Translations under genes and position numbers: made by a program
Shown: one piece after another, positions 4,790-18,856 of the stretch
How positions within the stretch are numbered: position 1 is the first letter of the stretch
Layout of the letters: the number at the start of each line of letters is the position of its first letter
IMG/VR virus record: IMGVR_UViG_3300009506_000118
Location: 1-35,044 of that record
Source: a virus
DNA: 35,044 nucleotides
Reading direction: 5' to 3' (one strand)
The notes under the pieces: generated by a model
Seen by the model: the letters and a program-made list of their open reading frames with translations, nothing else
Told to the model about the DNA's origin: nothing
Database searches by the model: none

Positions 4790-5025
4790 TCAGGGAGCGA
4801 TACTATAGTCTGGGTGAATACGTGCATCAGTTCGATCATGCGAACCTGGACATGGATATCGATGTCGGCCATAATGTCAAGAGTGAGGCCACCATTCTGG
4901 CAAGGAAACAGGGTGTTAGGATTAAGTGGAAAGGAGATCTGAAGGTTCTTATCCTCCCGGCAGCGATCTGGGAAAAAGCAATTGATGCCGTTATCAATGA
5001 AAAAAGAGAAACAGAAGGAACTTAG
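4786..5025 (+). CDS. Hypothetical small protein
   Basis: Protein of 79 aa with Asp-rich (DMDIDVGHN) and beta-like segments. No recognised motif and no signal peptide. It overlaps the following glycosyltransferase gene by 29 bases, so it is probably translated together with the start of the glycan cluster. Confidence 0.6.
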   Translation: MIRERYYSLGEYVHQFDHANLDMDIDVGHNVKSEATILARKQGVRIKWKGDLKVLILPAAIWEKAIDAVINEKRETEGT

Positions 5026-6028
5026 TATTATCATTCCCTACATGAATGATGAGCAGTACCTGGAAACCACCATTCCGGTACTCCTTAATGGTATCAAAAA
5101 CAAGGATGCCGAGGTGATTATTATCGATAACGGAAGTTTTTCTCCCCTGCAGGTAAGTTACCCAAAGGTAAGAGTGATCCGAAACCAGAAAAATATCGGT
5201 GTAGGGGGCGCTTTCAATCAAGGGGTGGAGCTCGCTCAGAGCAACCGTCTGATCCTGATGGGCTGTGACGTGATGACCCGCAGGGGCTGGTACAACCGGG
5301 TTATCAAGACCCTGGACGAACATCCCTTTACGATCTTTAACTGTGTCAGCTCCGGGTTCTCCGATGCCAGCGAGACCGAACCCTTCCGCCCCAAGCGCTC
5401 CAAACGCTACGGAGCCTTTATCTTGTACAAGGTCCGTAAGCAGGATCTCCCGGGAAACAGCCCTTTACGCAATGATCCTAAGTTTTCCAAGATCCTGCAG
5501 GGAAAATGGAACTACCGGCAACCTTCCCAGGATGAGTTTATTCCGATCCGGTGCCTGATGGGTGCTTTTTACTGGATGCATAAGGATGACTTTCAGAGGA
5601 TCCATGGTTGGAACGGTCACCGGATGTGGGGCACACTCGAGCCCTTTCTGTCGATCAAGGCCCGCGCACATGGGATGAACCTCGTGGTAGACACCAAGCT
5701 GGAGACCGCCCATCACTTCGGTAGGAGCGTGTTGCGGCCCGGGCGTCCGGACCTGATGTACTACAACATGCTGTTCGCGGCCCACTCGATGTTCTCCGAA
5801 GCCCTGGCCCAGGAGCTCGAGTACTATCTTCGTTACGGGGACCGGGAGGAAAAGATCGAAAAGCTGAACGTGAATCAGGCCAGGGTTATGCTCAAACAGA
5901 ACCGGGGCCTGCTCATGAGAGAGAGGGACTACAACAACCGACACTTTATTGGAGGATTGATAAAGAGTATTGAACAGTTTGAGGAGAATTTTTACTTTCA
6001 CCCGGACCCACAAATTAATAAACGATAA
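4997..6028 (+). CDS. Glycosyltransferase family 2-like
   Basis: Protein of 343 aa (from the MKKEKQ start; an ATG four codons upstream is in frame). GT-A fold signals: the opening strand ELSIIIPYMNDEQYLETT, the strand EVIIIDNGS, the NIGVGGAFNQG loop typical of GT2 enzymes, and LILMGCDVM at the place of the DxD motif. Near 210-230 comes GWNGHRMWG followed by Glu, a usual acceptor/base region. It would move a sugar from a nucleotide donor, probably in the cytoplasm, since no membrane segment is present. It is the first gene of the glycan island. The DxD motif is not canonical (C-D-V), so donor and metal use are uncertain. Confidence 0.8.
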   Translation: MKKEKQKELSIIIPYMNDEQYLETTIPVLLNGIKNKDAEVIIIDNGSFSPLQVSYPKVRVIRNQKNIGVGGAFNQGVELAQSNRLILMGCDVMTRRGWYNRVIKTLDEHPFTIFNCVSSGFSDASETEPFRPKRSKRYGAFILYKVRKQDLPGNSPLRNDPKFSKILQGKWNYRQPSQDEFIPIRCLMGAFYWMHKDDFQRIHGWNGHRMWGTLEPFLSIKARAHGMNLVVDTKLETAHHFGRSVLRPGRPDLMYYNMLFAAHSMFSEALAQELEYYLRYGDREEKIEKLNVNQARVMLKQNRGLLMRERDYNNRHFIGGLIKSIEQFEENFYFHPDPQINKR

Positions 6029-6029
6029 A

Positions 6030-6248
6030 ATGGCACAGACAGAGGTTAACCTGGATTTTGTGAACTTCCTGCTCACCCTGGAGCGTAAGCTCGGTGAGAT
6101 CAACTCGATCATTACCGACTCGTACCAGCATCAGGATATGAACGAGGAAGATATCCTCCTGTTGGAGAAGCTGCACGGTCTCTACTACCGTGGAGAGGTC
6201 TCTTTTGGACAGGGTAATCTTGATACCAAACAATTAAAAGTTTTATAA
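6030..6248 (+). CDS. Hypothetical small acidic protein
   Basis: Protein of 72 aa starting one base after the GT2 stop. It is helical and acidic (NEEDILLLEKLHGLYYRGEV) with no known motif. It lies between two glycosyltransferase genes and may be an unrelated small phage gene. Confidence 0.6.
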   Translation: MAQTEVNLDFVNFLLTLERKLGEINSIITDSYQHQDMNEEDILLLEKLHGLYYRGEVSFGQGNLDTKQLKVL

Positions 6249-6249
6249 A

Positions 6250-6450
6250 ATGAAGTGGTTAAAAAAGTACAGAGTAGTATCTATCACGAACCCGATTATC
6301 GGTAAGGATGGGATCAAACAATACGACACCTGGATCGCTGAGGCTACCAAGGTAGAAATATATGACCGTGCCGTAGTGCTTCGACTCAATCGTAAGATTG
6401 TTTTCGTGGCTCCTATCGATAAGGTTGTGATTGAACTGGATAAGAGCTGA
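6250..6450 (+). CDS. Hypothetical small protein
   Basis: Protein of 66 aa, predicted as short beta strands (KYRVVSITNPI; IVFVAPIDKVVIEL) with a KQYDTW turn, resembling a small barrel. There is no recognised family. Its TGA overlaps the ATG of the next gene (TGATG). Confidence 0.6.
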   Translation: MKWLKKYRVVSITNPIIGKDGIKQYDTWIAEATKVEIYDRAVVLRLNRKIVFVAPIDKVVIELDKS

Positions 6451-7199
6451 TGGATCTCGTTGTTCTTACCGCTTTCCATGCCCGTTTTCTGCTGAACGAG
6501 GCCTTCGCCACGGCAATGGACCGGCTTCGCGAGGAGCTAGGAGTCCGTACTTACGTGGTAATTACACCAGGTGAGCCAGAAAATCGTGAGATCTGCGAGG
6601 AGCATGGGTTTACGTTCTGTCAGCACAAGAACAATCCGGTGAGCGATAAGCTGAATGCGGGGATGGCGCTACTTAAGGGCCAGGAGTGGAGTCACGTCAT
6701 GATCCTGGGATCAGACGACATACCATCCACTCAGTTCGTTAGGAACCAGATGTTCGGTGAGACCGAGGATTTTATTGCGATTCAAGACATGTGGTTCTGG
6801 GGAATGAATCCTAAACGTGCCGGGTATAATACCTTTTGGTACTGGTACGCGGGGTCCTCCCGCCTGGGCGCTGGAAGAGTGATCAGCCGCAGGGCTGTGG
6901 AGGCCTGTGACTACAAGATCTGGCCCAGTGGGTATAATGCCGGGATGGATTCCCAGTCCTATAAGAGGATCAAGCATGCGATAGGACAGGACCTGAAGGC
7001 AATGAGTTACCGAAACAAGGATACTGGCGGGTTCCTGGTGGATATCAAGTACGAACTGCATATCAGCAGCCTCTCACCCGTGATCCGCCGTGCTCAGGCA
7101 GAAAATCCAAATATTATTCGCAAACACCTTCCGGAAAAAGAGTGCGATTATTTATTCTGGTTGGATGAGAAAATCAAAAAGGAAAACTTTATAAAATGA
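6450..7199 (+). CDS. GT-A-type glycosyltransferase-like protein
   Basis: Protein of 249 aa. It opens with MDLVVLTAFHARFLL, has a nucleotide-sugar-type region (KNNPVSDKLNAGM) and a clear acidic site, HVMILGSDDIPS at about residues 88-99, matching the DxD-like SDD of GT-A enzymes. Trp- and Tyr-rich segments (MWFWGMNP; TFWYWYAGSSRLGAG) follow. It is probably a sugar transferase acting in the cytoplasm. The donor cannot be told. Its ATGA junction couples it to the 49-aa membrane gene. Confidence 0.65.
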   Translation: MDLVVLTAFHARFLLNEAFATAMDRLREELGVRTYVVITPGEPENREICEEHGFTFCQHKNNPVSDKLNAGMALLKGQEWSHVMILGSDDIPSTQFVRNQMFGETEDFIAIQDMWFWGMNPKRAGYNTFWYWYAGSSRLGAGRVISRRAVEACDYKIWPSGYNAGMDSQSYKRIKHAIGQDLKAMSYRNKDTGGFLVDIKYELHISSLSPVIRRAQAENPNIIRKHLPEKECDYLFWLDEKIKKENFIK

Positions 7200-7345
7200 T
7201 AGTTTTAGAATTATTTCCCAATGGGGTGATCGTTGGTGGCGGTGTAGTGGATACATTGATAGCCTGTGTGATCTGGGTATTTATTTATTATGGTATCAGT
7301 AAACTGAATGAACGTGAAGATTCTGGTCCTCTCATATTACGGTAA
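7196..7345 (+). CDS. Small single-pass membrane protein, 49 aa
   Basis: A short frame overlapping the previous stop by ATGA and the next glycosyltransferase start by 38 bases. The peptide has one hydrophobic segment at about 11-33 (VIVGGGVVDTLIACVIWVF) followed by a charged tail. The overlaps on both sides suggest it is a real coupled gene. The function is unknown; an anchoring role for the neighbouring split transferase is only a guess. Confidence 0.5.
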   Translation: MIVLELFPNGVIVGGGVVDTLIACVIWVFIYYGISKLNEREDSGPLILR

Positions 7346-7850
7346 CTCCACGGATGTTGGAGGTAAGCGCTGGAAGCTGTTGGTCGAACGGCTTTCCAAG
7401 AACCACATCGTCAAGGTGATCGCTTCGGACTGGATCCCGGATAAGCGGAAGAGCTCGTACCTAGTCAGGTTCCTGATCAATAACCTGATCTATCCCGATT
7501 ACCGGAAGTTGTTTCTGACAGAGTGTAAGAAAGCGATCGATTCAGGGTATTACGACCTTGTAATCTCCACCTATCCCCCCCTAGCTTCCATGCAGGCAGG
7601 CTATTATGCCAAACAAAGGGGAATGAAGTGGATCTGCGACCTCCGTGATCCCATTATTCTGTATGATAACCGGTGGGCTGGAAATACCAGGCTATCCAAC
7701 TGGATACGGATTAGGTTGATTGGAAAGTATCTGCGTGCTGCGGATTCCCTTATTTTTACCAATTCTTACCTTGTTTTCTCCTATATGGACGTTACGGGTT
7801 TTGATAAATTGATTAAAAAAGCGGACGTTATTTTTAACATGCATGAATAA
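7308..7850 (+). CDS. GT-B glycosyltransferase, N-terminal half (split GT4-like)
   Basis: Protein of 180 aa matching the N-terminal (acceptor) Rossmann domain of GT4-type enzymes. It opens VKILVLSYYGNSTDVGGKRW, has the LVISTYPPLA strand, then the WICDLRDP motif (normally WI-x-D-[FL]-RDP) near 110-117 and ends at the domain linker (ADSLIFTNSYLV). It stops where the C-terminal domain should begin. That domain is encoded by the next gene, in a different frame, overlapping by 8 bases. The two products probably assemble into one enzyme. A sequencing or evolutionary frameshift is the alternative, but a clean ATG start and stop at the linker favour a true split. Confidence 0.7.
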   Translation: MNVKILVLSYYGNSTDVGGKRWKLLVERLSKNHIVKVIASDWIPDKRKSSYLVRFLINNLIYPDYRKLFLTECKKAIDSGYYDLVISTYPPLASMQAGYYAKQRGMKWICDLRDPIILYDNRWAGNTRLSNWIRIRLIGKYLRAADSLIFTNSYLVFSYMDVTGFDKLIKKADVIFNMHE

Positions 7851-8292
7851 GAGCTTAATCTATACCGGTACCCTTACACCCTATCACAAATGGGCGACAG
7901 ATCTCTTAAAAGAGATCGGGGTATATTATCTGGCCGTAAGTAATCATCCCAATTATCAGGGACTGATCCAGCAATCCGGGTTCTGTTTGTCAATCATGCC
8001 AGATACTAAACACCCATACCCAATTGTTCAGGCTAAGATCTTCGATTATCTGAAGTATAAGAAGCCTATTATCCACATGACCAAACACTACGATGAGACA
8101 AGTATTATCATCAAGGACCTTGATGCTGGGATGAGTTACATCCAGGGGACAAGTAATCCGCAGGATATTTTGGATTTTATGAATGGCGAACACAAGTATT
8201 CTTACGACGGAAGATTCAGTGCAGATCGCGCTGTCGAACAGTTGGAAAAAATAATTTTTAAGACGTTATGGACCGCAGGCACAAATTTATAA
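7843..8292 (+). CDS. GT-B glycosyltransferase, C-terminal half (split GT4-like)
   Basis: Protein of 149 aa that begins with the strand typical of the C-terminal, donor-binding domain of GT4 enzymes (SLIYTGTLTPYHKW). It continues with a region where the nucleotide-sugar site would lie (FCLSIMPDTKHPYPIVQAKIFDYLKYKKPII), in which the usual acidic E-x7-E motif is reduced. Its ATG lies inside the end of the preceding N-terminal-half gene. Alone it lacks the acceptor domain, so it should need its partner. Its end overlaps the sulfotransferase gene by 25 bases. Confidence 0.65.
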   Translation: MNKSLIYTGTLTPYHKWATDLLKEIGVYYLAVSNHPNYQGLIQQSGFCLSIMPDTKHPYPIVQAKIFDYLKYKKPIIHMTKHYDETSIIIKDLDAGMSYIQGTSNPQDILDFMNGEHKYSYDGRFSADRAVEQLEKIIFKTLWTAGTNL

Positions 8293-8918
8293 TTAGCCCC
8301 GAATACAACTTTATCTATTACGAGATCCAGAAGTGTGCGACGGAAACCCTGCGGAAGTACTTTCTTGGGAACAAGAACCGAAATCGCAACCCGAATAAGT
8401 ACGGGGCAGTTCGCATTTCCGGCGGTTTATCCACAGTGGTTCCTTACCGCGCTGATGGTTTTTATCAGTTTACTTTTATCCGGAATCCGTTTGAGAGGAT
8501 TGTCAGTGCCTGGTTGAGTAAGTTTCCACAGTACCATGATCCAAAGCATCCGACCCTGCCAGGTATCAGGGATCCGAGGCTGTCACTTGACACAACTTTT
8601 GAGGAATTTGTCAGGTTTATTGCACAAATTCCTGACAAAAAGGCGGATTGTCACTTTAAGTCCATGCATGCTTTTTTACCGGATATAGAGAATGGAAGGG
8701 TCTGGACCTCTGATTTCACAATAGGAAGGGTTGAAAGTTTGGAATCTGATTTTAACTATATCAGAGTGAGGATAGGTCTTCCTTTAGATCCTATCCCCGT
8801 GGAGAATAAAACCAAAAAGGACAAACCTTGGAGGGAGTACTATACCCCGGAGCTCAGGGATCTGGTTGCTTTGCGCTATGCCAAGGATCTGAAAATATTT
8901 GGATATACTTTTGATTGA
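8268..8918 (+). CDS. Carbohydrate sulfotransferase-like (Sulfotransfer_2 type)
   Basis: Protein of 216 aa. The PAPS-binding signatures are visible: the 5'-phosphosulfate loop IQKCATETLRK at 20-30 (usually P-K-x-A-S/G-T-x-L) with Lys22, and the 3'-phosphate motif FTFIRNPFERIVSAW at 68-82 with Arg72 and Ser80. Enzymes of this family move sulfate from PAPS to hydroxyls of sugars. The host must supply PAPS, since no PAPS synthesis gene is visible. There is no membrane segment, unlike animal Golgi enzymes, so it would act in the cytoplasm. It sits among sugar transferases, which supports a sulfated glycan product. The C-terminal YTPELRDLVALRYAKDL helix also fits the family. Confidence 0.8.
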   Translation: MDRRHKFIISPEYNFIYYEIQKCATETLRKYFLGNKNRNRNPNKYGAVRISGGLSTVVPYRADGFYQFTFIRNPFERIVSAWLSKFPQYHDPKHPTLPGIRDPRLSLDTTFEEFVRFIAQIPDKKADCHFKSMHAFLPDIENGRVWTSDFTIGRVESLESDFNYIRVRIGLPLDPIPVENKTKKDKPWREYYTPELRDLVALRYAKDLKIFGYTFD

Positions 8919-9682
8919 TGATAAGTGTTATTCTAAACGTATACAAGCGACCCCATATGCTGGATAGGCAGATCGATGCCATCCTGGGCCAGACCATTCC
9001 AGTAGAACCACATAATATCCATGTGTGGTACAATTGGGCGGAGGGTTTTTCACCTTCACCCGCACCTGCGGAACAGAATGTCAAGACCTATTATTCCAGC
9101 TGGAACACCAAGTTCTTCGGTCGCTTCACCCTTCCCTTTCTCTGCCGGACCCCTTACATCGCTATCTTCGACGACGACAACATACCGGAGGCCCGCTGGC
9201 TGGAGAACTGCCTTACAGTTATTAACACGCCGGAGACCAACGGAATCCTGGGCGGCGTGGGAGTGATCATGAAAAATACCAAGAAGAAGTCACTGAGAAA
9301 GAACGAAAAACCTCTTTATCGAATAGGTTGGAACGGCTGGCACTTGGATCACACCGAGAGGGTGGATTATGTGGGACAGACCTGGTTCTTTCGGAAGGAG
9401 TGGGCTAAGTACATGTGGTACGAGGAACCCCGCAACTGGGACAACGGAGAGGACATCATGTTCTGTTACCTGGCCCAGAAGTATGGAGGGATCAATTGTT
9501 TCGTTCCTCCTCACCCGGATGACAATACCGAGCTGTGGTCCACGGATTACAATACTGCTTGGAGGGAGGGGCGGGATGAGAACGCATCCTGGAGGCTGGC
9601 TGGACATCGCGAGGTTCGTGAAAGCATTATGTGGCACTGTATCGATAATGGTTGGAAAACTGTACATGAAGTGACGAGATGA
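8918..9682 (+). CDS. Glycosyltransferase family 2-like
   Basis: Protein of 254 aa from the ATG that overlaps the previous TGA. GT2 features: MISVILNVYKRPHMLDRQI at the N-terminus and YIAIFDDDNIP near residues 83-93, a clear DDD metal site. A later segment, WDNGEDIMFCYLAQKYGG, carries the E-D pair expected for the catalytic base region. A HxxE/His-rich end follows. It is probably soluble and part of the glycan assembly line directly after the sulfotransferase gene. Confidence 0.8.
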   Translation: MISVILNVYKRPHMLDRQIDAILGQTIPVEPHNIHVWYNWAEGFSPSPAPAEQNVKTYYSSWNTKFFGRFTLPFLCRTPYIAIFDDDNIPEARWLENCLTVINTPETNGILGGVGVIMKNTKKKSLRKNEKPLYRIGWNGWHLDHTERVDYVGQTWFFRKEWAKYMWYEEPRNWDNGEDIMFCYLAQKYGGINCFVPPHPDDNTELWSTDYNTAWREGRDENASWRLAGHREVRESIMWHCIDNGWKTVHEVTR

Positions 9683-9694
9683 AAAATTATAGAG

Positions 9695-9937
9695 ATGGCG
9701 CATGATGATGTTTCTTTAATGAGATATGGATTTATCAAGGATGAATCTGGACTTTTGGAAGTATTATGGATGACGGATGATGGACACATGCACATGAAAT
9801 TAATGAAAACAGATACTGGTTATTGGGTGATATTGGAGAAAAATTCTTCTGGTCACCGCACATATATGAATATTGGTCACCTAACCTCTATTAAAAATAT
9901 TCTTGACTTAAGAGATCAATTAATAAAGACACAATAA
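9695..9937 (+). CDS. Hypothetical small protein
   Basis: Protein of 80 aa with alternating strands, rich in Met and His (TDDGHMHMKLMKTD), and a C-terminal helix (IKNILDLRDQLIKTQ). No family was recognised. Its DNA is more AT-rich than its neighbours. It interrupts the run of glycan enzymes and may be a small inserted phage gene. Confidence 0.6.
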   Translation: MAHDDVSLMRYGFIKDESGLLEVLWMTDDGHMHMKLMKTDTGYWVILEKNSSGHRTYMNIGHLTSIKNILDLRDQLIKTQ

Positions 9938-9942
9938 TAGAG

Positions 9943-10698
9943 ATGAAAGACTTTACCGAACACTTTTTCATGCTCTACAATAAACTCAAAAATAAGGAAC
10001 ACTATGCCTTCTCGAGATTCAGTGATGGCGAGCTCCGCATCATGGAGAACAAGGAGCTTATCCTGGGTGATAACTTCAACAAGATCGGAACCCGAAGGCG
10101 GAGAAGCCATTATACGCCTGAAGACCGTAAACATTTCGATCCCAAGTACCACCAGTACATCCGCCAGCGGCTAATGGACGCCTATCAGTACAAGAAAAAA
10201 AACTACTATGTGGGGTTGTCCTGCAGGTGCTGTGTAGGGCCAGCTGGGTTTAACAAGATGGTGAAGTGGAGGGGTGGTGATGACGAGTACCTGACATGGT
10301 CGAATCTCTGGGTCAATGCCAACTATCCGTTATTTGTTGAGCACATGATACCGGAATTCGGTAAGAATCGCATCGTTTATATTTGCAATGAGAATGCGAA
10401 TTTGTCTGGCTTGCCGTTCGAGGTGGAGAAGGATTTTCGGGTGGGAGACAACTGCATAGTCAATGATTTTCTGCTATACTGGGCCATTGGCGGCTGGATC
10501 CATCGGGAAGGTATCACGGATCGCGTGTTCCTGTTCAGTGCCAGCAGCCTCAGCAATGTCCTGATCTATGAACTCTACAGATGGTTTGGGCCCATTAATA
10601 CCTACCTGGACATTGGAACCACCCTGAATCCATATATTGGACTTCCTGGCACCAGGGGATACCTTACCGGTAAAAACCGCAAGCAATGCATTTGGTAA
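9943..10698 (+). CDS. GT-D-fold (DUF1792-like) glycosyltransferase
   Basis: Protein of 251 aa. The N-terminal AFSRFSDGELRIM (22-34) matches the [FY]xRFGDGE site of GT-D enzymes, with D28 and E30 as the DxE metal site. Near the C-terminus, VFLFSASSLSNVLIYEL and INTYLDIGTTLNPY match the usual 'GP/A-x-S...DIG' closing elements. GT-D enzymes add a further sugar, for example glucose, to a glycoprotein or polysaccharide glycan; the first described member extends the glycan of Ser-rich adhesins. That is notable here because Ser-rich virion proteins are encoded downstream. The exact donor is unknown. Confidence 0.7.
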   Translation: MKDFTEHFFMLYNKLKNKEHYAFSRFSDGELRIMENKELILGDNFNKIGTRRRRSHYTPEDRKHFDPKYHQYIRQRLMDAYQYKKKNYYVGLSCRCCVGPAGFNKMVKWRGGDDEYLTWSNLWVNANYPLFVEHMIPEFGKNRIVYICNENANLSGLPFEVEKDFRVGDNCIVNDFLLYWAIGGWIHREGITDRVFLFSASSLSNVLIYELYRWFGPINTYLDIGTTLNPYIGLPGTRGYLTGKNRKQCIW

Positions 10699-11081
10699 AG
10701 AATAAAGTCAAGTACTGGGAGTTCATCCGTAGGCTCCGGAACGATGAAAAAGTTAAGATTGGATTTATCAACCAGGATAATATAACTGTTGAACAACAGC
10801 TCGAATACATGGGAAAGTACAATGATAATTACTACATTTGTGTCCACCAGGGCATTCCGTTGGGATATATCGGCCAGGTAGATGGTGATATCCGCCTTGC
10901 CGTAACTCCCGCTTATCACGGACAGGGAGTGGCCACGTTTATGCTGACCAAGTTCATGACTCTATACCCGGAAGCCACGGCAAAGGTTAAGTTAGATAAT
11001 ATTGCAAGTAACAGATTGTTCCCTAGTTGCGGATTCGTACAATACGATCAGGATAAAAACTTTTTTTATTACAAGCTATGA
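10686..11081 (+). CDS. GNAT-family N-acetyltransferase
   Basis: Protein of 131 aa. The acetyl-CoA loop is LAVTPAYHGQGVATFML at 71-87, matching GNAT motif A with H-G-Q-G-V-A in place of the usual R-G-x-G-x-G/A. Strands before it and the VKLDNIASNRLFPSCGF segment after it (motif B) complete the fold. It would acetylate an amino group. The next gene is an aminotransferase with a 4-base overlap, so the pair could make an N-acetylated amino sugar, as in other nucleotide-sugar pathways. The substrate is inferred from context. Confidence 0.75.
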   Translation: MHLVKNKVKYWEFIRRLRNDEKVKIGFINQDNITVEQQLEYMGKYNDNYYICVHQGIPLGYIGQVDGDIRLAVTPAYHGQGVATFMLTKFMTLYPEATAKVKLDNIASNRLFPSCGFVQYDQDKNFFYYKL

Positions 11082-11704
11082 CACTTAAACACAGCAGAAA
11101 CAATCCCTACAACGTAGTGAGTATGTTTGAGGATGAGATCGAGGAATATACCGGAGCACCATATGCTATTGCCGTAGATAGTTGTACCAATGCCCTGTTT
11201 CTTTGCATGAAATATCTGGGAGTTGGTGGTCAGATGGTTATTCTTCCCAAAAAAACCTACTTATCTGTACCCATGATGCTCATTCATGCCGGTGGAATCC
11301 CGGTGTTTAAGGATATCGAGTGGTCCGGTATGTACCAGTTGGAGCCGCTTCCACTCTGGGACTCGGCCAAGCGCCTGACCAGCGGTATGTATAAAAATGG
11401 ACAATTTATTTGCCTATCTTTTCACATCAAGAAACAACTTGGAATTGGGAAGGGGGGTATGATTCTAACCGATGATTGGGAGGCGAAAAGCTGGTTTAAG
11501 ATGGCCAGATATGAAGGAAGGTCTGAAATGAACTATAAGGATGATAACATCAAGATGTTGGGCTGGAACATGTACATGACGCCCCAGCAGGCCGCTCATG
11601 GATTGGCCTTGATACAGAATTATCCAGAGCACATGCCGGACCTGGGAGAGAATGACGGGTACAAGGATCTTACTGAAAACGATATCTTTAAGCAGTATGT
11701 ATAA
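11078..11704 (+). CDS. DegT/DnrJ/EryC1-type aminotransferase, short form
   Basis: Protein of 208 aa resembling the large PLP domain of sugar aminotransferases: YAIAVDSCTNALFL near 29-42 (phosphate-binding serine/threonine region), D95 in WDSAKR (pairs with PLP nitrogen) and the catalytic SFHIKKQLGIGKGGMILTDD segment with K119 in the SFHxxK position. Typical members have 360-400 aa; the C-terminal small domain is missing here. It could act as a dimer with reduced substrate specificity, or be an active remnant. The order GNAT-aminotransferase suggests synthesis of an N-acetylamino sugar. Confidence 0.7.
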   Translation: MTLKHSRNNPYNVVSMFEDEIEEYTGAPYAIAVDSCTNALFLCMKYLGVGGQMVILPKKTYLSVPMMLIHAGGIPVFKDIEWSGMYQLEPLPLWDSAKRLTSGMYKNGQFICLSFHIKKQLGIGKGGMILTDDWEAKSWFKMARYEGRSEMNYKDDNIKMLGWNMYMTPQQAAHGLALIQNYPEHMPDLGENDGYKDLTENDIFKQYV

Positions 11705-12260
11705 CCATAATAAAAAACTGGTTTTTGTCCACGTACCACGTACCGGAGGGACCGCGATCAAGAATTCATTGGGCGGATTTCGGAAACCAGGGGTGGGCTA
11801 TCACGAGAACTGGGAGACGATTAAGGCCGCTAATCCAAAGGCGTGGGAAAATTACTTTAAGTTTTCCGTGGTAAGAAATCCCTGGGACCGGGTCTATTCC
11901 ATCTACAGCTATTACAAAAATAGTCCACGTCAAAGGACAGGGGTCAAACCCAGGGAGCTTCCGGATATGTTTGAGGATTTTGTGTGGGATCTCAGCCGGT
12001 ATCTTGGCATTCTTGGACTCAATTACAATCAGTGTGAATATATTGGGGATGAGCTTAATTTTGTTTGCAGGTTTGAGAATCTCAGGAATGATTTTAAGTA
12101 CATGTGTAAGCTCGCTGGGGTAACTCCTGTTCGTGAGTTTGAACGAAAAAGGGAATCGCGCAGGGATCCAAATTATACGAATGTTTATAATTCACAACTG
12201 GAGTACATTGTAGAATCTTACTTTGCGGAGGATATTGAAAAATATGGATATGAATACTAA
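11697..12260 (+). CDS. Second sulfotransferase-like protein
   Basis: Protein of 187 aa from the ATG that overlaps the aminotransferase stop by 8 bases. The 5'-phosphosulfate motif is VHVPRTGGTAIKN at 11-23, with Arg at the place of the usual Lys of PKTGGT. The 3'-phosphate motif is FKFSVVRNPWDRVYSIYSYY at 54-73 with R60 and S68. It has the compact size of bacterial and viral family-2 sulfotransferases. It is not a close copy of the enzyme at 8268-8918, so the two may sulfate different sugars or positions. The Lys-to-Arg change leaves some doubt about activity. Confidence 0.75.
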   Translation: MYNHNKKLVFVHVPRTGGTAIKNSLGGFRKPGVGYHENWETIKAANPKAWENYFKFSVVRNPWDRVYSIYSYYKNSPRQRTGVKPRELPDMFEDFVWDLSRYLGILGLNYNQCEYIGDELNFVCRFENLRNDFKYMCKLAGVTPVREFERKRESRRDPNYTNVYNSQLEYIVESYFAEDIEKYGYEY

Positions 12261-13074
12261 GAGAATAGCACTCTGTCTCTATGGTTACTTTAACAATAAA
12301 ACTAATCCGCACGCGGGGATACGTGGGTATCAGTACATTAAAGAAAATATACTGGATAAATATGTTACAGATGTTTACCTGCATTCTTGGGACGCGGACA
12401 ACGATAGTCTGATTCTGTCCCTGTATAATCCTATCAGTTGCACCATCGAGACCCAGATAGACTTTAATCCGATAGCTAGAGCGGAAGGGATAGATGAGGA
12501 TTGGATCAATGGAAGATATAAGAGGAAGGGTTCGCGATTCGCGAATTGTACAGTTCACAACTCCTTAAGCTTCTTTTATTCTCGTTCTCAGGCGATTTGG
12601 CATAAGTGTTGGGGGGAGATCGAGTTGGGTATTATCTACGATTATGTGATTGTATGCAGATTCGATCTTGGCCAGCGCAGCGGAGTGCACCGCGGGTTTA
12701 ATGTTTCGAAGATGCCGTTCGATCCAAAATTATCAATGGAGTTTATCTACAGCGCGATGTGGGACCAGCTCAATGCCGGATACGCCGATCAGTGGTTCTT
12801 TTCCAATAGCGCCAATATCGATAAGCTCGGGACGATGTATTCTGCATCACTTGAGTATTTAAGGCCCTATAGTTTTTATTTTACAATGTTAACAGGTGGA
12901 TGGCCCGAGAGTAACAGTAATGATGAATTCTCAAATGAACGGTTAGGGGGTCCGGGCACTTTTTATCCGGTGAAGTATCCCAGGTGGCAGATGATTAACA
13001 ATCATATCCTGCATAAGTGGCACTTTATTCAAACCGGATTGTATGAAAAATCCAAATTTTTAGACGGGACATGA
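12250..13074 (+). CDS. Glycosyltransferase-like protein of the glycan island
   Basis: Protein of 274 aa; an in-frame ATG lies two codons upstream. The opening KRIALCLYGYFNN, then KENILDKYVTDVYLHSWD and later YDYVIVCRFDLGQ, is a pattern I associate with uncharacterised glycosyltransferase-like proteins of viruses and polysaccharide clusters: an HSWD site and a CRFD acidic motif. No membrane segment is present. The function is inferred from this pattern and from its position between sugar-modifying genes. Confidence 0.5.
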   Translation: MNTKRIALCLYGYFNNKTNPHAGIRGYQYIKENILDKYVTDVYLHSWDADNDSLILSLYNPISCTIETQIDFNPIARAEGIDEDWINGRYKRKGSRFANCTVHNSLSFFYSRSQAIWHKCWGEIELGIIYDYVIVCRFDLGQRSGVHRGFNVSKMPFDPKLSMEFIYSAMWDQLNAGYADQWFFSNSANIDKLGTMYSASLEYLRPYSFYFTMLTGGWPESNSNDEFSNERLGGPGTFYPVKYPRWQMINNHILHKWHFIQTGLYEKSKFLDGT

Positions 13075-13745
13075 AACCAACACTCGTACTTTACACGCAC
13101 ACGGATATGGCTGATGTCTGGCCCATCTTCTTTGGACAGGTCTCGAAGTACATGTGGCAGTACCGGAAGATTGTTTATGTGGACCGGTATACGGATTTAA
13201 TACCATTGGATTACGAGAAGATTATTTATGATGATCGGTTGTCCTATAGGAAGAGGATGCTTTTTAGTCTCGCCCGGACCAACGATTTGGTGATCCTGTT
13301 CCAGCACGAGGATATGTTCCTGTATGATGCCCCGATGTTATCTGTTGTAGAGGATATGGCAGATGCGCTCATGCATCCGGGAGGACCTGCTTTCATGCGC
13401 CTGGTGCCCGTAGACGAGGATGTGGAGCGTAAGTATGGGTTCACGGTTCAACCAGCCATCTGGCCCCGGCAGCGTCTGTATAAGCTCCTGGATCAGTCCC
13501 GGGGAGAATCGATCTGGGACCTGGAGACTAAATCCAGGAGAGCTTTTCATCGATTAGCCTATAACAGTATCTCGATTCAGAAAGGGGAGAAGAGGGGGAA
13601 GTATCACTACGATTCGCCCATGTTCCCGGCCTGCGCCACAGCAATAACCAAAGGGAGGTGGAATACCAAGGAATATGGAAAGGAACTGGCAGAATTATTC
13701 TTTAAGTATAAGATCGATCCAAACGAAAGGGGAACCAATGATTAA
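13071..13745 (+). CDS. Unknown protein of the glycan island
   Basis: Protein of 224 aa with an ATGA junction to the gene before. Alternating strands and helices begin at PTLVLYTHTDMADVW, followed by KIVYVDRYTDL and DLVILFQHEDMFLYD. The H-E-D in the last segment could be a metal site of a GT-A-like fold. Similar proteins are often found beside glycosyltransferases, but I cannot name the family. Its end overlaps the bifunctional gene that follows by 8 bases. Confidence 0.5.
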   Translation: MKPTLVLYTHTDMADVWPIFFGQVSKYMWQYRKIVYVDRYTDLIPLDYEKIIYDDRLSYRKRMLFSLARTNDLVILFQHEDMFLYDAPMLSVVEDMADALMHPGGPAFMRLVPVDEDVERKYGFTVQPAIWPRQRLYKLLDQSRGESIWDLETKSRRAFHRLAYNSISIQKGEKRGKYHYDSPMFPACATAITKGRWNTKEYGKELAELFFKYKIDPNERGTND

Positions 13746-15111
13746 GGCTGTTATTTTTGATCTGGACGGCGTCCTTGTAGAACTCAAGGATGCCCATTTT
13801 GAGTGTCTGAACCGCGCACTTGCCGGTATTGGGGAAGAGTATGTGATTTCCATAGATGATCATTACGGAAAGTTTGACGGTCTTCCTACCCGTAATAAGT
13901 TACAAATGCTCACCGAGGACAGGGGGCTTCCGGAGAAGGAATACTGGCAGATCAACGACTGGAAGCAACGGTTTACTATTGGATATATCGAAGACCGGGT
14001 CGAGCGATCCCAGGATCTAAGAAATCTGATGGCCTGGTTAAATGCCAGCAGAATAAAGATTGCGGTTGCCTCCAACTCGGTTCGCAATACGATCTACACC
14101 GCGTTGGTTAAGCTCGGGGTAATCACTTATGTGGACTTTATTCTCTCCAACCAGGATGTAGTAAATGCCAAACCTAACCCAGAGATCTATTTAAAAACAA
14201 TAGCCGGACTTGGATTAAAGCCGGAGGAGTGCCTGGTGGTGGAGGATAGTCCATACGGGGTCAATGCAGCGGTAGCGAGTGGAGCCCGCGTTATGCGTGT
14301 GGCAGGAACGGGTGAGGTTAAAAAGTCCAACATCGAAAACTTTATCAAAACAATGAATATGGAAACCACTATAAAAAAATGGTCCGCCCCGAAGTGGAAA
14401 GTTTTGATCCCTATGGCCGGTGCCGGAAGTAGGTTCGAGAAGGCCGGTTATACCTTCCCCAAACCCCTTATCGAGGTCAATGGCAAACCTATGATCCAGG
14501 TCGTGGTAGAAAACCTGGGAATAGACGCCGAGTTTATCTACATCGTGCAGGAGGAGCACTACAAGAAGTACAATCTCTGGCACTTTCTCAACCTTCTTAC
14601 CCCGAACTGCAGGGTGATTACCATAAATGAGCTGACCGAAGGTGCCGCCTGTACTACCTTACTCGCCAAGAACATGATTAATAATGGCGATCATCTTCTG
14701 ATTGCTAATTCCGATCAGTTCGTGGAATGGGATTCTAATAGGTTTTATTACTCCATGGAAGACTCCGGAGTAGATGGCGGGATCCTGTGTTTCTACAATA
14801 CTCATCCGAAGTGGAGCTACGTTCAGCTCAATGACCGCGGGTTCGTGACCGAGGTGGCCGAGAAGGTACCGATAAGTACGAATGCAACGGTTGGAATCTA
14901 TTACTGGAAAAAAGGCAGCGATTATGTAAAATACGCTGAACAAATGATCCAAAAGAATATCCGCACCAATGGAGAGTTTTACGTGGCGCCAGTCTTTAAT
15001 GAGGCCATTGAGGCGGGGGCCAGGATAAGGTCCTTCTACGCCGAGCAGATGTGGGGTCTGGGCACTCCGGAGGATCTTGATCATTATTTAAAACACCATG
15101 GACGTAACTGA
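13738..15111 (+). CDS. Bifunctional HAD phosphatase / sugar-phosphate nucleotidyltransferase
   Basis: Protein of 457 aa made of two domains. Residues 1-205 are a beta-phosphoglucomutase-like HAD enzyme: D8-x-D10 in FDLDGV, VASNS at 110-114, K145, and E169-D170 in VVEDSPYG. Residues 218-457 are a nucleotidyltransferase: IPMAGAGSRF at 224-233 and FPKPL at 240-244, then an NSDQ acidic site (IANSDQFVEW). The start is the ATG overlapping the previous stop; an upstream extension in frame is less likely. The fusion would process a sugar phosphate and activate it as a nucleotide sugar, giving a donor for the transferases. The exact sugar and nucleotide are unknown. Confidence 0.85.
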   Translation: MIKAVIFDLDGVLVELKDAHFECLNRALAGIGEEYVISIDDHYGKFDGLPTRNKLQMLTEDRGLPEKEYWQINDWKQRFTIGYIEDRVERSQDLRNLMAWLNASRIKIAVASNSVRNTIYTALVKLGVITYVDFILSNQDVVNAKPNPEIYLKTIAGLGLKPEECLVVEDSPYGVNAAVASGARVMRVAGTGEVKKSNIENFIKTMNMETTIKKWSAPKWKVLIPMAGAGSRFEKAGYTFPKPLIEVNGKPMIQVVVENLGIDAEFIYIVQEEHYKKYNLWHFLNLLTPNCRVITINELTEGAACTTLLAKNMINNGDHLLIANSDQFVEWDSNRFYYSMEDSGVDGGILCFYNTHPKWSYVQLNDRGFVTEVAEKVPISTNATVGIYYWKKGSDYVKYAEQMIQKNIRTNGEFYVAPVFNEAIEAGARIRSFYAEQMWGLGTPEDLDHYLKHHGRN

Positions 15112-15709
15112 TGCAAAATATGCAATAGTTGTCCAGGGACCGTCGATGTACTATCCTATTTTGAGGCATAAATTTCGCGGTTTCAGCGTTATCTGGTCTA
15201 CCTGGAATGGAGAACGGGTGCCATGGATGAAAGGAGAAGTTGTTCTGAACAAGGTTCCGGAAATCAAGGGCACGCGCAACATCGCGATGCAACAGATCAG
15301 TACCTACAACGGGATCTTAAGGGCCAAAGAGCTTGGGTTTGAGCGGGTATTTAAGTGGAGAAGCGATATGTACCCTATCGGCATGCATAGAATACTTAAG
15401 CTATTGGATTTCAGCAGTATCAATATGATGTACTATCACAATCATCGCGATGGATACTTTGTGGACTTCTTCATGGAGGGGGATGTTGATACCATGCTTA
15501 AGATCTGGGACTTCAAGGATTTTGATGTTGAATATCCGGAGCTGGCCATCAAAAACAGCATCATTAAACACAGGATCGACAATATTTCATTCTTTGGTGA
15601 TGGGATAACGGAGGACAACGATATCTTTTGGATCAAGAAAGGGTTCTTTTTATCAGAATGCAGATCAAACGAAAGATTAACTTGCAATTATGAGATTCAT
15701 AGCACATAG
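15098..15709 (+). CDS. WavE-like lipopolysaccharide synthesis protein
   Basis: Protein of 203 aa. AIVVQGPSMYY at the start, VIWSTWNGE, then NIAMQQISTYNGILRAKEL and VFKWRSDMYP match the WavE family pattern (VVQGP...STW...NRQ...GL..A...KxRSD). WavE was named from an LPS core cluster in Vibrio and is thought to be a glycosyltransferase. The R-S-D segment is the likely metal site. It is shorter than typical members. The C-terminal part keeps a WIKKGFFLSE stretch. It overlaps its neighbours by 14 and 20 bases. Confidence 0.65.
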   Translation: MDVTDAKYAIVVQGPSMYYPILRHKFRGFSVIWSTWNGERVPWMKGEVVLNKVPEIKGTRNIAMQQISTYNGILRAKELGFERVFKWRSDMYPIGMHRILKLLDFSSINMMYYHNHRDGYFVDFFMEGDVDTMLKIWDFKDFDVEYPELAIKNSIIKHRIDNISFFGDGITEDNDIFWIKKGFFLSECRSNERLTCNYEIHST

Positions 15710-16166
15710 GGGGAACCTTGACGGACCAGATCCCAAGAACGAGAATACGTTGAATGCAATTAATATAGCAATTGCCGCAGGGTTTGATGTGGAGATTGAT
15801 ATTTGGCATGTAAATAATAGATTTTTTCTTGGACATGATTATCCGAAGTGTTATGTAGATGAATCTTTTTTAATTGATCACAGCAGTCGTCTTTGGTGTC
15901 ACGCGAAGACACTTCAGGCATTATATGCTCTTCTCGACATGCCAATGATGGAATGTTTTTTCCATAATATCGATCAATATACTCTTACTTCCAATGATCT
16001 TATTTGGACTTATCCAGATATGCCCGTTACAGATAAATCTATTATGCTTTTGTTTGAAAAATTTTCACTAGAGGATGCAAAAATACCTGAATATATCTAC
16101 GGACTTTGTAGTGATCACATAAAATACTACCGCAATGCTTTTAATCAGTTACGGGACCAGACCTGA
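15690..16166 (+). CDS. GDPD-like phosphodiesterase family protein
   Basis: Protein of 158 aa with all short motifs of the glycerophosphodiester phosphodiesterase fold at the N-terminus: H6-R7-G8, E18-N19-T20, E35-x-D37 and H49-D50. It resembles a compact subgroup found in capsule clusters and large viruses (RLWCHAKTLQALYAL; TLTSNDLIWTYPD; YIYGLCSDHI). Such proteins may cut or form a phosphodiester on the glycan, for example glycerol phosphate. At half the length of usual GDPD it is still complete for this subgroup as I remember it. The DNA is AT-rich compared with the flanking genes. Confidence 0.65.
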   Translation: MRFIAHRGNLDGPDPKNENTLNAINIAIAAGFDVEIDIWHVNNRFFLGHDYPKCYVDESFLIDHSSRLWCHAKTLQALYALLDMPMMECFFHNIDQYTLTSNDLIWTYPDMPVTDKSIMLLFEKFSLEDAKIPEYIYGLCSDHIKYYRNAFNQLRDQT

Positions 16167-17142
16167 ATACATCAAGATTAAACCACTAATCGATTATCTT
16201 TGGAAAGCAGATTATCCTTTTGTGGTGTGCAGGATCCGACAACATGAGAATCTTGTAGATAATTGTTACTTTGATTTTGAGTTAAAAGTAAGGGATAGAT
16301 ATAGTAGGTTAGATTGTCTTGTAGAATCTGCCCTGCATTGGTATAAGTGGAAGTATCCTTATACTCTCCCTGATATTACCCATGTTTTGGTGCAAGGGGA
16401 TACTACATCGGCAATGGCTATGGCACTTACTTCTTTTCATGCCGGTCTTAAGGTTATCCACATGGAGGCCGGTCTTCGATCGTGTGATGATAAAAATCCC
16501 TGGCCAGAAGAAGTTAATAGAAAACTCATATCTCAACTAGCAGATATCCATCTTTGTCCCACTCACAGTAATATGGTGAACCTAATCAATGAGAACGTAA
16601 CGGGTAAGAAGTACGTGGTCGGGAACACCTCGATTGATAGTATCAAAGAGCTTGGGTTCCAGTCAGCATATGGTGATCATGTGGTTATTACCCTGCATCG
16701 CCGGGAAAACTGGCCGATTATGGATAAGTGGTTTACACAATTGAATCTGATTGCTGGAAAGAGTAAGCTTAAGTTTATCTTTCCCATGCATCCCGGGGAG
16801 GCCGTCCAGAAGCACCGGGCGAAACTAAAAAACATTCAGATCCTGGATCCCATTGACCACGAAGGAATGGCCGAGTTGATCTCCGGAGCCCGCCTGGTTA
16901 TTACCGACAGCGGAGGCATCCAAGAAGAATGTTCTTACTATAAAAAGATTTGCCTGGTCTGCAGAACTACCACCGAACGAGTAGAATCCCTAGGGAAGAG
17001 TACGATCCTGATCAAACATCCGGAGGAACTACCCATACAGTTCGGCTACTATGAATATGAGTATAAAATAAACTGGCCTTGTCCCTACGGAGACGGGAGG
17101 GCCTCAGAGCAGATTTATGAAATCTTAAAGGATTTGAAATGA
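16135..17142 (+). CDS. wecB: UDP-N-acetylglucosamine 2-epimerase
   Basis: Protein of 335 aa, slightly shorter than typical (about 375). Family motifs in order: GTRPEYIKIKPLI at 7-19, VQGDTTSAMA, HMEAGLRS, PEEVNRKL, VITLHRRENW with the catalytic His, FPMHPG, and ITDSGGIQEE. The enzyme interconverts UDP-GlcNAc and UDP-ManNAc, giving a ManNAc-type donor for polysaccharide. It overlaps the GDPD-like gene by 32 bases and couples to the next gene by ATGA. An alternative is a related epimerase acting on a modified UDP-sugar. Confidence 0.9.
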   Translation: MLLISYGTRPEYIKIKPLIDYLWKADYPFVVCRIRQHENLVDNCYFDFELKVRDRYSRLDCLVESALHWYKWKYPYTLPDITHVLVQGDTTSAMAMALTSFHAGLKVIHMEAGLRSCDDKNPWPEEVNRKLISQLADIHLCPTHSNMVNLINENVTGKKYVVGNTSIDSIKELGFQSAYGDHVVITLHRRENWPIMDKWFTQLNLIAGKSKLKFIFPMHPGEAVQKHRAKLKNIQILDPIDHEGMAELISGARLVITDSGGIQEECSYYKKICLVCRTTTERVESLGKSTILIKHPEELPIQFGYYEYEYKINWPCPYGDGRASEQIYEILKDLK

Positions 17143-17714
17143 AACTGAATTGGACCGGTACCGACAGCCTGATGCTCGTGGATTATTCCATGCGCACCTT
17201 CCGAAAGAAGGTTTACTGGTGGATTTTCCGGAGATTAATCCGTGTTATGGAATATTTCATCGAGGGACATTTGTGTGATTCTGAACTGGTATTTAGGAAT
17301 GTTGTTAGGTTTGGAACTCGCAAGCCTATTTGGACATTGCTTCCCAAACTAACCTATACCGAGAAATTTCCAAAAAAAGAACACTCAACCTTTACCGTTC
17401 TGTATTATTTCCCACGGGGCGGTGATTTAAAATTTACACAATGGCTGTATGGATGGGATATCTTCAAGGCCGTTTGTCGTGCCTTTCCGGAATTCAGATA
17501 TGTGGTTGTGGAAGGCGATTCCGATATGGAATATATTTTCCCGGAGGTAGATTTTTACCTTCGTCCGAACCGGCACGACGGGTCTTCGAGATTGAGGATG
17601 GAGTGTGAGATCCAGGAAATACCTTATTATTGGTCTGTGCAGAACCCAGATCTCCCAAGAATATTTGTTATGATCGATGAATGTTACCAGCAGTGGCTGC
17701 AAGGAAGAAAATAA
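17139..17714 (+). CDS. GT-B-like glycosyltransferase, C-terminal domain type
   Basis: Protein of 191 aa. TFTVLYYFPRGGDLKFTQW, EFRYVVVEGDSD and the segment FYLRPNRHDGSSRLRMECE look like the donor domain of a GT-B enzyme, where R-x-x-x-HDG-x3-x3-E is the nucleotide-sugar site. The N-terminal 80 residues are short, Trp/Arg-rich (RTFRKKVYWWIFRRLI) and too small for a full acceptor domain. It may be a reduced transferase or work with a partner protein. Confidence 0.55.
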   Translation: MKLNWTGTDSLMLVDYSMRTFRKKVYWWIFRRLIRVMEYFIEGHLCDSELVFRNVVRFGTRKPIWTLLPKLTYTEKFPKKEHSTFTVLYYFPRGGDLKFTQWLYGWDIFKAVCRAFPEFRYVVVEGDSDMEYIFPEVDFYLRPNRHDGSSRLRMECEIQEIPYYWSVQNPDLPRIFVMIDECYQQWLQGRK

Positions 17715-18070
17715 AGCGAGCGGTTCGCATCAAGGTTTATTATGACCGTTCGGGTCCGTACATTAATTATGTCAGGAACCTTATGGTCATCGCCGTTGCC
17801 TATAAGGTCTATGAGGATGCCGCCATCGGGAGGTGGATCTATTCCAACCGGTACTGGGTGATTCCTGTTATTCTGGTATCCTATGTGTTGGGTAGAATAA
17901 TTATAGGGTTTACTGACAAAAGGATGAGAATCCGAGAATATGAGCTAGAGGAATATAACCGCACAAATCCTGATCTTCAAGACATTAAAAGCGGAGTTAC
18001 CAAAATACTCAATAAGTTAGATGAGAATAATTCAGTTAGCAACGATCCCGGGCAGGGAGGAAAGCCTTAA
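17681..18070 (+). CDS. Two-pass membrane protein
   Basis: Protein of 129 aa overlapping the previous gene by 34 bases. A basic N-terminus precedes two hydrophobic segments at about 33-42 and 60-78 (WVIPVILVSYVLGRIIIGF). A charged C-terminal coiled coil follows (EYELEEYN; KSGVTKILNKLDEN). It could recruit the soluble glycan enzymes to the membrane, but nothing in the sequence proves this. Another option is a lysis or envelope protein. Confidence 0.55.
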   Translation: MLPAVAARKKIKRAVRIKVYYDRSGPYINYVRNLMVIAVAYKVYEDAAIGRWIYSNRYWVIPVILVSYVLGRIIIGFTDKRMRIREYELEEYNRTNPDLQDIKSGVTKILNKLDENNSVSNDPGQGGKP

Positions 18071-18680
18071 GAAGACCATTAACAGCCTGCTCCCCCAGTC
18101 CGATGTCATTCAGGTGGTACTGAACGGCCACGATTCTGTTCCGGAATTTTTGGACAATTCCAAGATCGAAGTTATCCAGAGCGACAACCGGTATGGAGAT
18201 GCTGCCAAGTTCCTGAACACGGAGAGGCGGGATGGCTACATCCTGACCTGTGATGATGACCTGGCCTATCCGGAGGGATACGTTGGTTACATGATCGATG
18301 GCGTGAATCGCCACCAGGCCGCGGTAAGTTTGCTCGGTAAGATCTACGATAACCGTCCGGTCAATTCCTTCCGGGGTGGTTATACCCAGATATTCCGCTG
18401 CCTTACAAGCGTGAAGAATGATCATCGTGTGGATATCGGTGGTACGGGGGCAATGGCTTTTCATACCGATCTACTGAAGCTGTCTGTTAAGGATTTCCCA
18501 AGGAAAAACATGGCCGATATCTGGTTCGCCAGGGCCGCAAAGGAGCAAAACGTACCTATTTACGTACTTGCCCATCCCGCCCGTTACGTCAAGCACACCC
18601 TGCATAGCCGCAGGATCTGGGTGATGACTTCCAAGTGGGATCGGTACCAGACCAAGATCCTAAATGAATTCCTGAAATAA
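18021..18680 (+). CDS. GT-A-type glycosyltransferase, last gene of the island
   Basis: Protein of 219 aa. MRIIQLATIPGREESLKKTI at the start and YILTCDDDLAYPEGYVGYM near 74-90 give a clear GT-A layout with a DDD metal site. A Gly-rich GGTGAMAFHTDLL segment and a later D-x-W-F-A region (NMADIWFARAAKE) fit the acceptor side. It overlaps the membrane gene by 50 bases. It is followed by a promoter, a short non-coding unit and a terminator, so the operon ends here. Confidence 0.75.
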   Translation: MRIIQLATIPGREESLKKTINSLLPQSDVIQVVLNGHDSVPEFLDNSKIEVIQSDNRYGDAAKFLNTERRDGYILTCDDDLAYPEGYVGYMIDGVNRHQAAVSLLGKIYDNRPVNSFRGGYTQIFRCLTSVKNDHRVDIGGTGAMAFHTDLLKLSVKDFPRKNMADIWFARAAKEQNVPIYVLAHPARYVKHTLHSRRIWVMTSKWDRYQTKILNEFLK

Positions 18681-18692
18681 TGTTGAAGAACA

Positions 18693-18724
18693 TAAAAATT
18701 GCATTGATATTTTTCCTATCTTTG
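18693..18724 (+). promoter_or_regulatory. Promoter (A-tract plus TATCTTTG)
   Basis: TATCTTTG at 18717-18724 with TAAAAA at 18693-18698, 18 bases apart. A TTG follows the A-tract at 18699-18701. It starts just after the last glycan gene and points into a 77-base non-coding stretch that ends in a terminator. Confidence 0.7.
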
Positions 18725-18729
18725 TAGAA

Positions 18730-18807
18730 GAAAATTACAAGTCCTCCATAGTCACCTTCATTGTCGAGTTAGTTAGGTTGGGCCCCGGTAAGTGCCGGGG
18801 CTTTTTT
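18730..18807 (+). ncRNA. Putative small RNA of about 77 nt
   Basis: The unit is bounded by the promoter at 18693-18724 and the terminator at 18782-18807 and has no start codon followed by a useful frame. The 5' half is unstructured (CAAGTCCTCCATAGTCACC). It is the second unit of this design in the window; the other is at 767-850. A role as a base-pairing regulator of virion or host genes is only a hypothesis. Confidence 0.45.
18782..18807 (+). terminator. Intrinsic terminator after the glycan operon
   Basis: GCCCCGG (18782-18788) and CCGGGGC (18795-18801) form a perfect 7-bp stem with loop TAAGTG, followed by six T. It closes both the glycan operon and the small RNA unit. Confidence 0.9.
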
Positions 18808-18844
18808 GTATATTACAGCGAATAAGGCTCGATGATTTTCTTCT

Positions 18845-18852
18845 TATCTTTG
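18845..18852 (+). promoter_or_regulatory. Promoter -7 box of the virion-protein operon
   Basis: TATCTTTG lies only four bases before the ATG at 18857. With the usual start 4-7 bases past the box the mRNA would be leaderless or nearly so. There is no strong upstream A-tract. Confidence 0.65.
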
Positions 18853-18856
18853 CGGT

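Follow-up and report, generated by a model that had tools for sequence, protein, structure and literature searches.

A collinear glycan gene cassette in unrelated giant phages suggests a shared viral system that sugar-coats something, perhaps the virus particle

Analysis of IMG/VR virus record IMGVR_UViG_3300009506_000118, which was examined over its whole length of 35,044 bases (hereafter, the window), revealed a glycan synthesis and modification island at positions 4997–18680 whose core (8915–17142), judging by gene content and order, is a recurrent viral cassette circulating among tailed phages. Its gene order is repeated in unrelated giant phages, and viruses may therefore share a means of sugar-coating something, perhaps the virus particle. 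More specifically, we propose, with a probability of roughly 0.5, that soluble cytoplasmic enzymes build an N-acylated, sulfated oligosaccharide on a virion protein. Sugar clusters are already known in cyanophages and jumbo phages; the collinear cassette with a half-size DegT aminotransferase (mini-DegT) is the new part, and no description of either was found in the literature searched, most subscription journals lying outside its scope.

The original prediction, made from the DNA letters, had placed a glycan island inside a phage genome between dnaB and the virion genes, and the open reading frames (ORFs) were found as predicted, all on the + strand and coupled. The island comprises about 20 genes between dnaB and a terminator, and nearly all of its junctions overlap or abut, the main exception being a 108-nt gap (7199/7308). 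Its genes, with the supporting matches in brackets, are as follows.

4997–6028, + strand: GT2 glycosyltransferase, variable flank (PF00535, Glycos_transf_2, 6e-18; the cassette contigs give weak GT2 matches only)
6450–7199, + strand: putative glycosyltransferase, variable flank (no Pfam family; weak relative in locus L087)
7308–7850, + strand: possible N-terminal half of a GT-B glycosyltransferase (Glyco_transf_4 0.007, below cut-off)
7843–8292, + strand: possible C-terminal half of a GT-B glycosyltransferase (no family match; position only)
8268–8918, + strand: sulfotransferase 1 (Sulfotransfer_2 3e-21; phrog_3347 2e-13)
8915–9682, + strand: GT2 glycosyltransferase, cassette core (PF00535 6e-8; present in 44 of 80 mini-DegT loci)
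9943–10698, + strand: GT-D glycosyltransferase, cassette core (AlphaFold model matches 4pfx, 4phr and 5v4a)
10686–11081, + strand: GNAT N-acyltransferase, cassette core (Acetyltransf_1 8e-7; found in 54 of 80 mini-DegT loci)
11078–11704, + strand: mini-DegT, 208 aa, cassette core (PF01041 7e-28)
11652–12260, + strand: sulfotransferase 2, likely start 11697 (Sulfotransfer_2 7e-9; relative with 46% identity at the same place in L367)
12250–13074, + strand: putative glycosyltransferase of the phrog_13607 family, cassette core (phrog_13607 8e-10; 50–53% relatives in L367, L346 and L354)
13071–13745, + strand: GT-A-fold glycosyltransferase, cassette core (model with a predicted local distance difference test score, pLDDT, of 84 that matches GT-A structures; no Pfam family)
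13738–15111, + strand: HAD phosphatase–sugar nucleotidyltransferase fusion (HAD-NTase), cassette core (HAD_2 3e-29, NTP_transferase 2e-10)
15098–15709, + strand: WavE-like putative glycosyltransferase, weak (WavE 0.035, below cut-off; 34–39% relatives in L122, L097 and L123)
15690–16166, + strand: short GDPD-like phosphodiesterase, cassette core (catalytic residues kept; in 62 of 80 viral HAD-NTase loci; weak PDB match)
16135–17142, + strand: non-hydrolysing UDP-GlcNAc 2-epimerase of WecB type, cassette core (Epimerase_2 1e-61)
17139–17714, + strand: ORF without family, variable flank (no Pfam; no relative in the fetched loci)
17681–18070, + strand: small protein with hydrophobic segments, probably membrane-anchored (sequence; weak DUF2062 only)
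18021–18680, + strand: GT2 glycosyltransferase, last island gene (PF00535 1e-5)

A search of IMG/VR with the HAD-NTase fusion returned at least 580 viral loci, with 53–58% identity in the best 80; the scans were built on short patterns and the best-scoring matches were listed, so that locus counts here and below are not rates. When the alignment of this fusion was run against 84,980 bacterial and archaeal species, about 22 full-length fusions were obtained, some of them on short, possibly viral contigs. In the HAD-NTase tree the window falls among viral sequences, its long branch permitting no finer placement. Loci L122 and L169 carry GT2, epimerase, GT-D, GNAT, DegT, the 12250–13074 family, GT-A, HAD-NTase and GDPD in this order, most of which is kept in L148, L133 and L137. 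The DegT search led to L346 and L354, jumbo-phage contigs of 362 and 366 kb, and to the 34-kb contig L367; in all three, nine families follow the window order with the epimerase last, and the probability of an exact nine-gene order by chance is 1 in 9!. In L367, which also has the second sulfotransferase listed above, GT2 is fused to GT-D (8100–9590, 496 aa) and GNAT to mini-DegT (9584–10648, 354 aa).

Several of these contigs, including L122, L346, L354 and L341, encode a T4-type Gp23 capsid protein, whereas the window has no Gp23 and a TerL distantly like that of Pachyviridae; L347 combines a window-like TerL and portal with a DegT of 208 aa encoded immediately upstream of TerL. The cassette therefore appears to reside in different phage lineages. 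Comparison with related phage genomes, which the original prediction had proposed, thus revealed the core in the same order in other virus contigs. An integrated host locus, its suggested counter-explanation, does not fit, since the island is flanked by DnaD/DnaB-type replication genes on one side and by terminase, portal and capsid-region genes on the other, and the relatives of its core lie in virus contigs. Separately, L105 has at 17492–19414 a gene for a subtilase-like protein whose linkers are homopolymers of Pro and Thr; it lies a few genes behind the cassette and beside a fibre-like gene.

The window DegT, at 208 aa, is about half the usual length and falls short of the full two-domain fold of about 360–400 aa; 74 of 80 relatives measured 198–239 aa, the longer ones including a GNAT fusion. 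Five viral relatives shared 64–69% identity with it, and the active-site Lys was invariant in six phages. A truncated pseudogene was ruled out by this conservation of length, identity and active-site Lys; the enzyme is short, as originally described, but as a conserved viral form and not a truncation. The mini-DegT search yielded 306 viral loci, whereas among 395 Bacteroidota genomes a single one matched at E 1e-15, in a 3.6-kb locus without other cassette genes; as a positive control, the model detected seven virus records. Of 80 loci, 52 had a GNAT gene beside mini-DegT, 5 a formyltransferase gene and 1 a gene of each kind, while several of the remaining 22 had a hexapeptide acyltransferase (two confirmed by Pfam). 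The GNAT–DegT fusion was confirmed in L367, and ORF length points to further fusions. Because three unrelated acyltransferase folds occupy the same place, mini-DegT probably yields an amino sugar, which is subsequently N-acylated, and this swapping of partners points to the chemistry of the enzyme. If active, the half-size DegT would add a new minimal form to a well-studied enzyme family. Near the mini-DegT of L386 lies a 1,197-aa ORF (17011–20601) with 21 predicted hydrophobic segments.

Pfam, PHROGs and NCBIfam supported the GT2, sulfotransferase, GNAT, short DegT, HAD-NTase and epimerase calls of the original prediction; against NCBIfam TIGR00236 the epimerase scored 209.8 bits, the curated cut-off being 210.15. 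The DDD and ED motifs of the core GT2 (8915–9682) were kept in eight phages, and R..DGE of the GT-D protein was invariant across nine. Pfam is blind to the latter, and the only PDB matches of its AlphaFold model at E <0.001 were three DUF1792/GT-D structures, which upheld the GT-D call, as the model of 13071–13745 with its GT-A fold did the GT-A call. PDB sequence profiles gave nothing useful for the GT-D, GT-A and 12250–13074 families, and predicted folds were needed for the first two. The GDPD-like call held in its catalytic residues (His-Arg, Glu-x-Asp and His), which are kept across phage relatives, but its PDB match was weak. The split GT-B and WavE calls stayed below curated cut-offs: the C-terminal half of the GT-B was without any match and in silico joining of the halves gave no better Pfam score, while one relative of the WavE-like protein reached 4e-4, also below cut-off. 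Profile comparison revealed no kinship between the WavE-like and 12250–13074 families, the latter of which also has relatives in cyanophage islands. Defence-system models matched none of the ten island proteins compared with them.

The original prediction had also noted that the island has no flippase or polymerase of its own, and PF01943, PF02397 and PF00953 were indeed absent from the window. The Wzx flippase family PF01943 was found in 0 of 34 virus records with HAD-NTase and 0 of 22 of the mini-DegT set (the window being in both), compared with 13 of 14 controls; the initiating transferases PF02397 and PF00953 were each found in 0 of the 34, compared with 9 of 14 and 12 of 14 known genomes, respectively. 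Taken together, 55 virus records with cassette genes were without a Wzx flippase. Of 1,580 ORFs in viral HAD-NTase loci, none had six or more predicted transmembrane segments, whereas bacterial loci with the same fusion had 24 such ORFs among 319, and 12 of 22 such bacterial loci lay near polytopic membrane proteins. Because many records are fragments, the absence of flippase and initiation genes is evidence, not proof.

TAnnTTTG is a Bacteroidota promoter element, and between dnaB and 18717 the window has a single intergenic copy, which stands behind dnaB, while a strong terminator closes the island.

3829–3836, + strand: Bacteroidota-type -7 element, TATTTTTG, after dnaB (motif scan)
18780–18803, + strand: intrinsic terminator closing the island (10-pair G+C-rich stem, then a T run)

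Given these two signals, the island may be transcribed as a single unit that follows the replication genes. Directly behind it lies the first of two genes for proteins that could serve as glycan acceptors.

18857–19561, + strand: candidate acceptor, role inferred; N-terminal domain, pure Ser/Thr tract, C-terminal domain (30-residue stretch 100% Ser/Thr)
23436–23978, + strand: second candidate acceptor, role inferred; paralogous N-terminal domain, Ser/Thr tail (sequence)

The two proteins are paralogues with 41% identity. No relatives of them were found in viral contigs, and tracts of at least 70% Ser/Thr occurred in 0 of 777 ORFs of TerL-related loci.

In the proposed pathway, the WecB-type epimerase would convert UDP-GlcNAc to UDP-ManNAc, HAD-NTase would activate a sugar phosphate, and mini-DegT and GNAT would aminate and then N-acylate a host-supplied keto-sugar nucleotide. 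Several glycosyltransferases would extend the chain stepwise in the cytoplasm and the two sulfotransferases would sulfate it. This assembly line would be largely soluble, although the island is not wholly so, since the 17681–18070 protein has hydrophobic segments. The likeliest acceptors would be Ser/Thr residues of virion proteins, possibly the Ser/Thr-tract proteins at 18857 and 23436, and virions would leave the cell carrying a sulfated coat. The process would resemble the stepwise O-glycosylation that serine-rich repeat adhesins receive in the cytoplasm, without membership in that system being implied. We favour virion O-glycosylation because a GT-D enzyme extends the Fap1 glycan and because the Ser/Thr-tract paralogues lie beside the island. 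A bolder version, in which a lipid-carrier-free cassette with its own half-size aminotransferase moves horizontally among unrelated tailed phages and glycosylates mucin-like Ser/Thr tracts of virion proteins with a sulfated, N-acylated oligosaccharide, is offered only tentatively and is rather doubtful.

A number of observations weigh against glycosylation of a virion protein. No protein-priming transferase of GtfA or OGT type was recognised in Pfam scans of the island, for which no dedicated model was run, and no 4,6-dehydratase was found. Ser/Thr tracts do not characterise cassette phages at large (0 of 1,695 ORFs around 80 mini-DegT genes at 65%), and Thr-rich tracts were also present in a control phage. 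The transmembrane counts rest on a simple hydropathy rule and, to our knowledge, phages seldom encode polytopic proteins anyway. The position of the island after the replication genes, with a terminator between it and the virion genes, fits host modification equally well. A phage protein and a host polysaccharide, the two targets originally proposed, remain the leading readings, between which the sequence evidence is not decisive.

If the host is the target, the enzymes would act in the cytoplasm on lipid-linked O-antigen, lipopolysaccharide (LPS) core or capsule precursors, via the initiating transferase, flippase and ligase of the host, and the changed surface would prevent other phages, or newly released virions of the phage itself, from attaching to the infected cell or its remains. 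We regard this as a serious possibility, not far behind virion glycosylation though at less than even odds. Such readings have been published for cyanophage and jumbo-phage clusters (PMC7824862), for pelagimyophages (PMC7029224) and for Bacteroidetes bS21 phages, which carry DegT too (PMC9723584); the frequent proximity of bacterial HAD-NTase to polytopic membrane proteins and the place of the island behind the replication genes, bounded by a terminator, also agree with it. It has more difficulty with the finding that no record tested has an initiating enzyme or flippase, yet gene order is kept across phages of presumably different host glycans, and a lytic infection is too brief to repaint the surface much. 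Attachment of the sugars to phage DNA bases as protection from restriction seems very improbable: DNA-modifying phage glycosyltransferases are known (cited in PMC12619734) and the island adjoins replication genes, but the window, an incomplete genome, shows no recognisable nucleotide hydroxymethylase or base-modifying enzyme, and at least five supported transferases with two sulfotransferases exceed the needs of known base glycosylation. Production of a diffusible glycan or secondary metabolite, a role proposed for certain other sugar clusters of cyanophages (PMC7824862), or misassembly of the island into the contig, is improbable in view of the single strand and overlapping genes throughout, and of L347, where a mini-DegT stands directly upstream of a window-like TerL.

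The remaining genes of the window place it among tailed phages.

252–698, left end of window: PNKP-type HAD phosphatase (PF25109 6e-31)
1028–1759, left side of window: DnaD-like loader
2452–3819, left side of window: DnaB helicase
24718–27060: terminase, TerL (phrog_6681)
27096–29624: portal protein (phrog_6547)

A scaffold-like gene and then a gene at the capsid position lie to the right of the portal; tblastn of the latter against phages gave no match. Its TerL shares 23–26% identity (22–26% across the comparisons as a whole) with the TerL proteins of an environmental podovirus, a Flavobacterium elemo phage, Maribacter phage Panino and the Pachyviridae member Cellulophaga phage phi18:3, all of which have a homologous portal and share the order TerL–portal–scaffold–capsid with the window. 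By these comparisons the window phage is distantly Pachyviridae/Elemovirus-like, a placement for which no family rank is claimed. Since the genomes of these relatives measure 60–77 kb, the window is probably about half a genome. An IMG/VR scan with the single TerL sequence returned no matches, and a five-row TerL alignment returned 564 relatives at about 25% identity. Upstream of TerL in the nearest of them, L009, two methyltransferase-like genes and a DUF6734 gene (1858–3873) may form a smaller modification module in a comparable position.

The window contained 25 forward copies of TAnnTTTG (about 10 expected) and 9 reverse copies, and its 1,889 intergenic bases contained 10 copies compared with 1.2 expected, whereas sigma-70-type promoters were at chance level. 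Owing to this intergenic excess and the TerL kinship with Bacteroidota phages, the host is likely a member of the Bacteroidota; TAnnTTTG counts in the jumbo contigs indicated no clear host. A 19-nt element, TCGGGTAAAACTAAAAAAC, occurs with 0–3 mismatches at 19590, 22178, 24047 and 34770, none being expected after shuffling, and weaker copies lie at 33944, 16815 and 844 (minus strand). The element may belong to the leaders of virion mRNAs, as the copies at 19590 and 24047 sit between TAnnTTTG and a start codon. The 742-aa protein encoded at 19932–22160, which has a signal-peptide-like N-terminus and weak matches to SWM-repeat and Polysacc_lyase_14 (both below cut-off), is possibly a tail protein acting on polysaccharide. 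At 34749–35044, an ORF that runs off the contig also has a signal-peptide-like start, which is unusual for a structural region.

Sugar genes, which are very common in environmental phages, could give the virion a coat or alter the host surface, and the published readings that we found favour LPS remodelling. A compact cassette of fixed order, without the lipid-initiation and flippase genes tested, together with a related island in a cultured phage, Flavobacterium phage vB_FspM_immuto, makes the question directly testable. Lipid-carrier-free Ser/Thr glycosylation, if true, would be the phage equivalent of what giant viruses do when they glycosylate themselves.

Among known systems, the Kyanoviridae cyanophages (S-PRM1, S-CAM9, B23, S-SM2 and Bellamy) have similarly compact, same-strand glycosyltransferase clusters in lytic phages, which share three families with the island: HAD-NTase (52–54% over the full length in three), the GDPD-like protein (28–38%) and the 12250–13074 family. 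However, mini-DegT was absent from the five cyanophages tested, which have NAD-type epimerases and, in some cases, heptose or transketolase genes, and their clusters lie elsewhere in T4-like genomes. The bS21 Bacteroidetes phages carry polysaccharide genes including DegT, and L346, L354 and L341 are of similar size; the available part of the report (PMC9723584) interprets these genes as LPS remodelling and describes no collinear cassette or half-size DegT. In immuto, a short DegT (gp172, 39% identity to that of the window) lies among several glycosyltransferases and adjoins a Pfam-confirmed hexapeptide/PglD-type acyltransferase, although the other neighbours and their order differ and immuto is a T4-type myovirus with Gp23.

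In contrast to a Wzx/Wzy-type O-antigen or capsule locus, the cassette records have no PF01943, PF02397 or PF00953. The closest functional parallel is with Fap1 of S. parasanguinis, where a DUF1792 GT-D enzyme in a sequential transferase chain extends an O-glycan on a Ser-rich protein and the transferases alone suffice in E. coli (PMC5063993). The window shares the GT-D (DUF1792) extending transferase, its model matching 4pfx, 4phr and 5v4a, but no GtfA/GtfB-type priming pair was recognised in it (Pfam scans, no dedicated model), sulfation and an N-acylated amino sugar are added, and its acceptors are candidates. Giant viruses decorate their virions with their own glycosyltransferases (PMC9614988), and virion glycosylation with virus-encoded glycosyltransferases is also reported for mycobacteriophages (Freeman 2023, as described in a citing paper). 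Compared with both, the window is known from its genes alone and represents a tailed phage of a probable Bacteroidota host, and its cassette far exceeds in size the one or two mycobacteriophage genes mentioned in that description.

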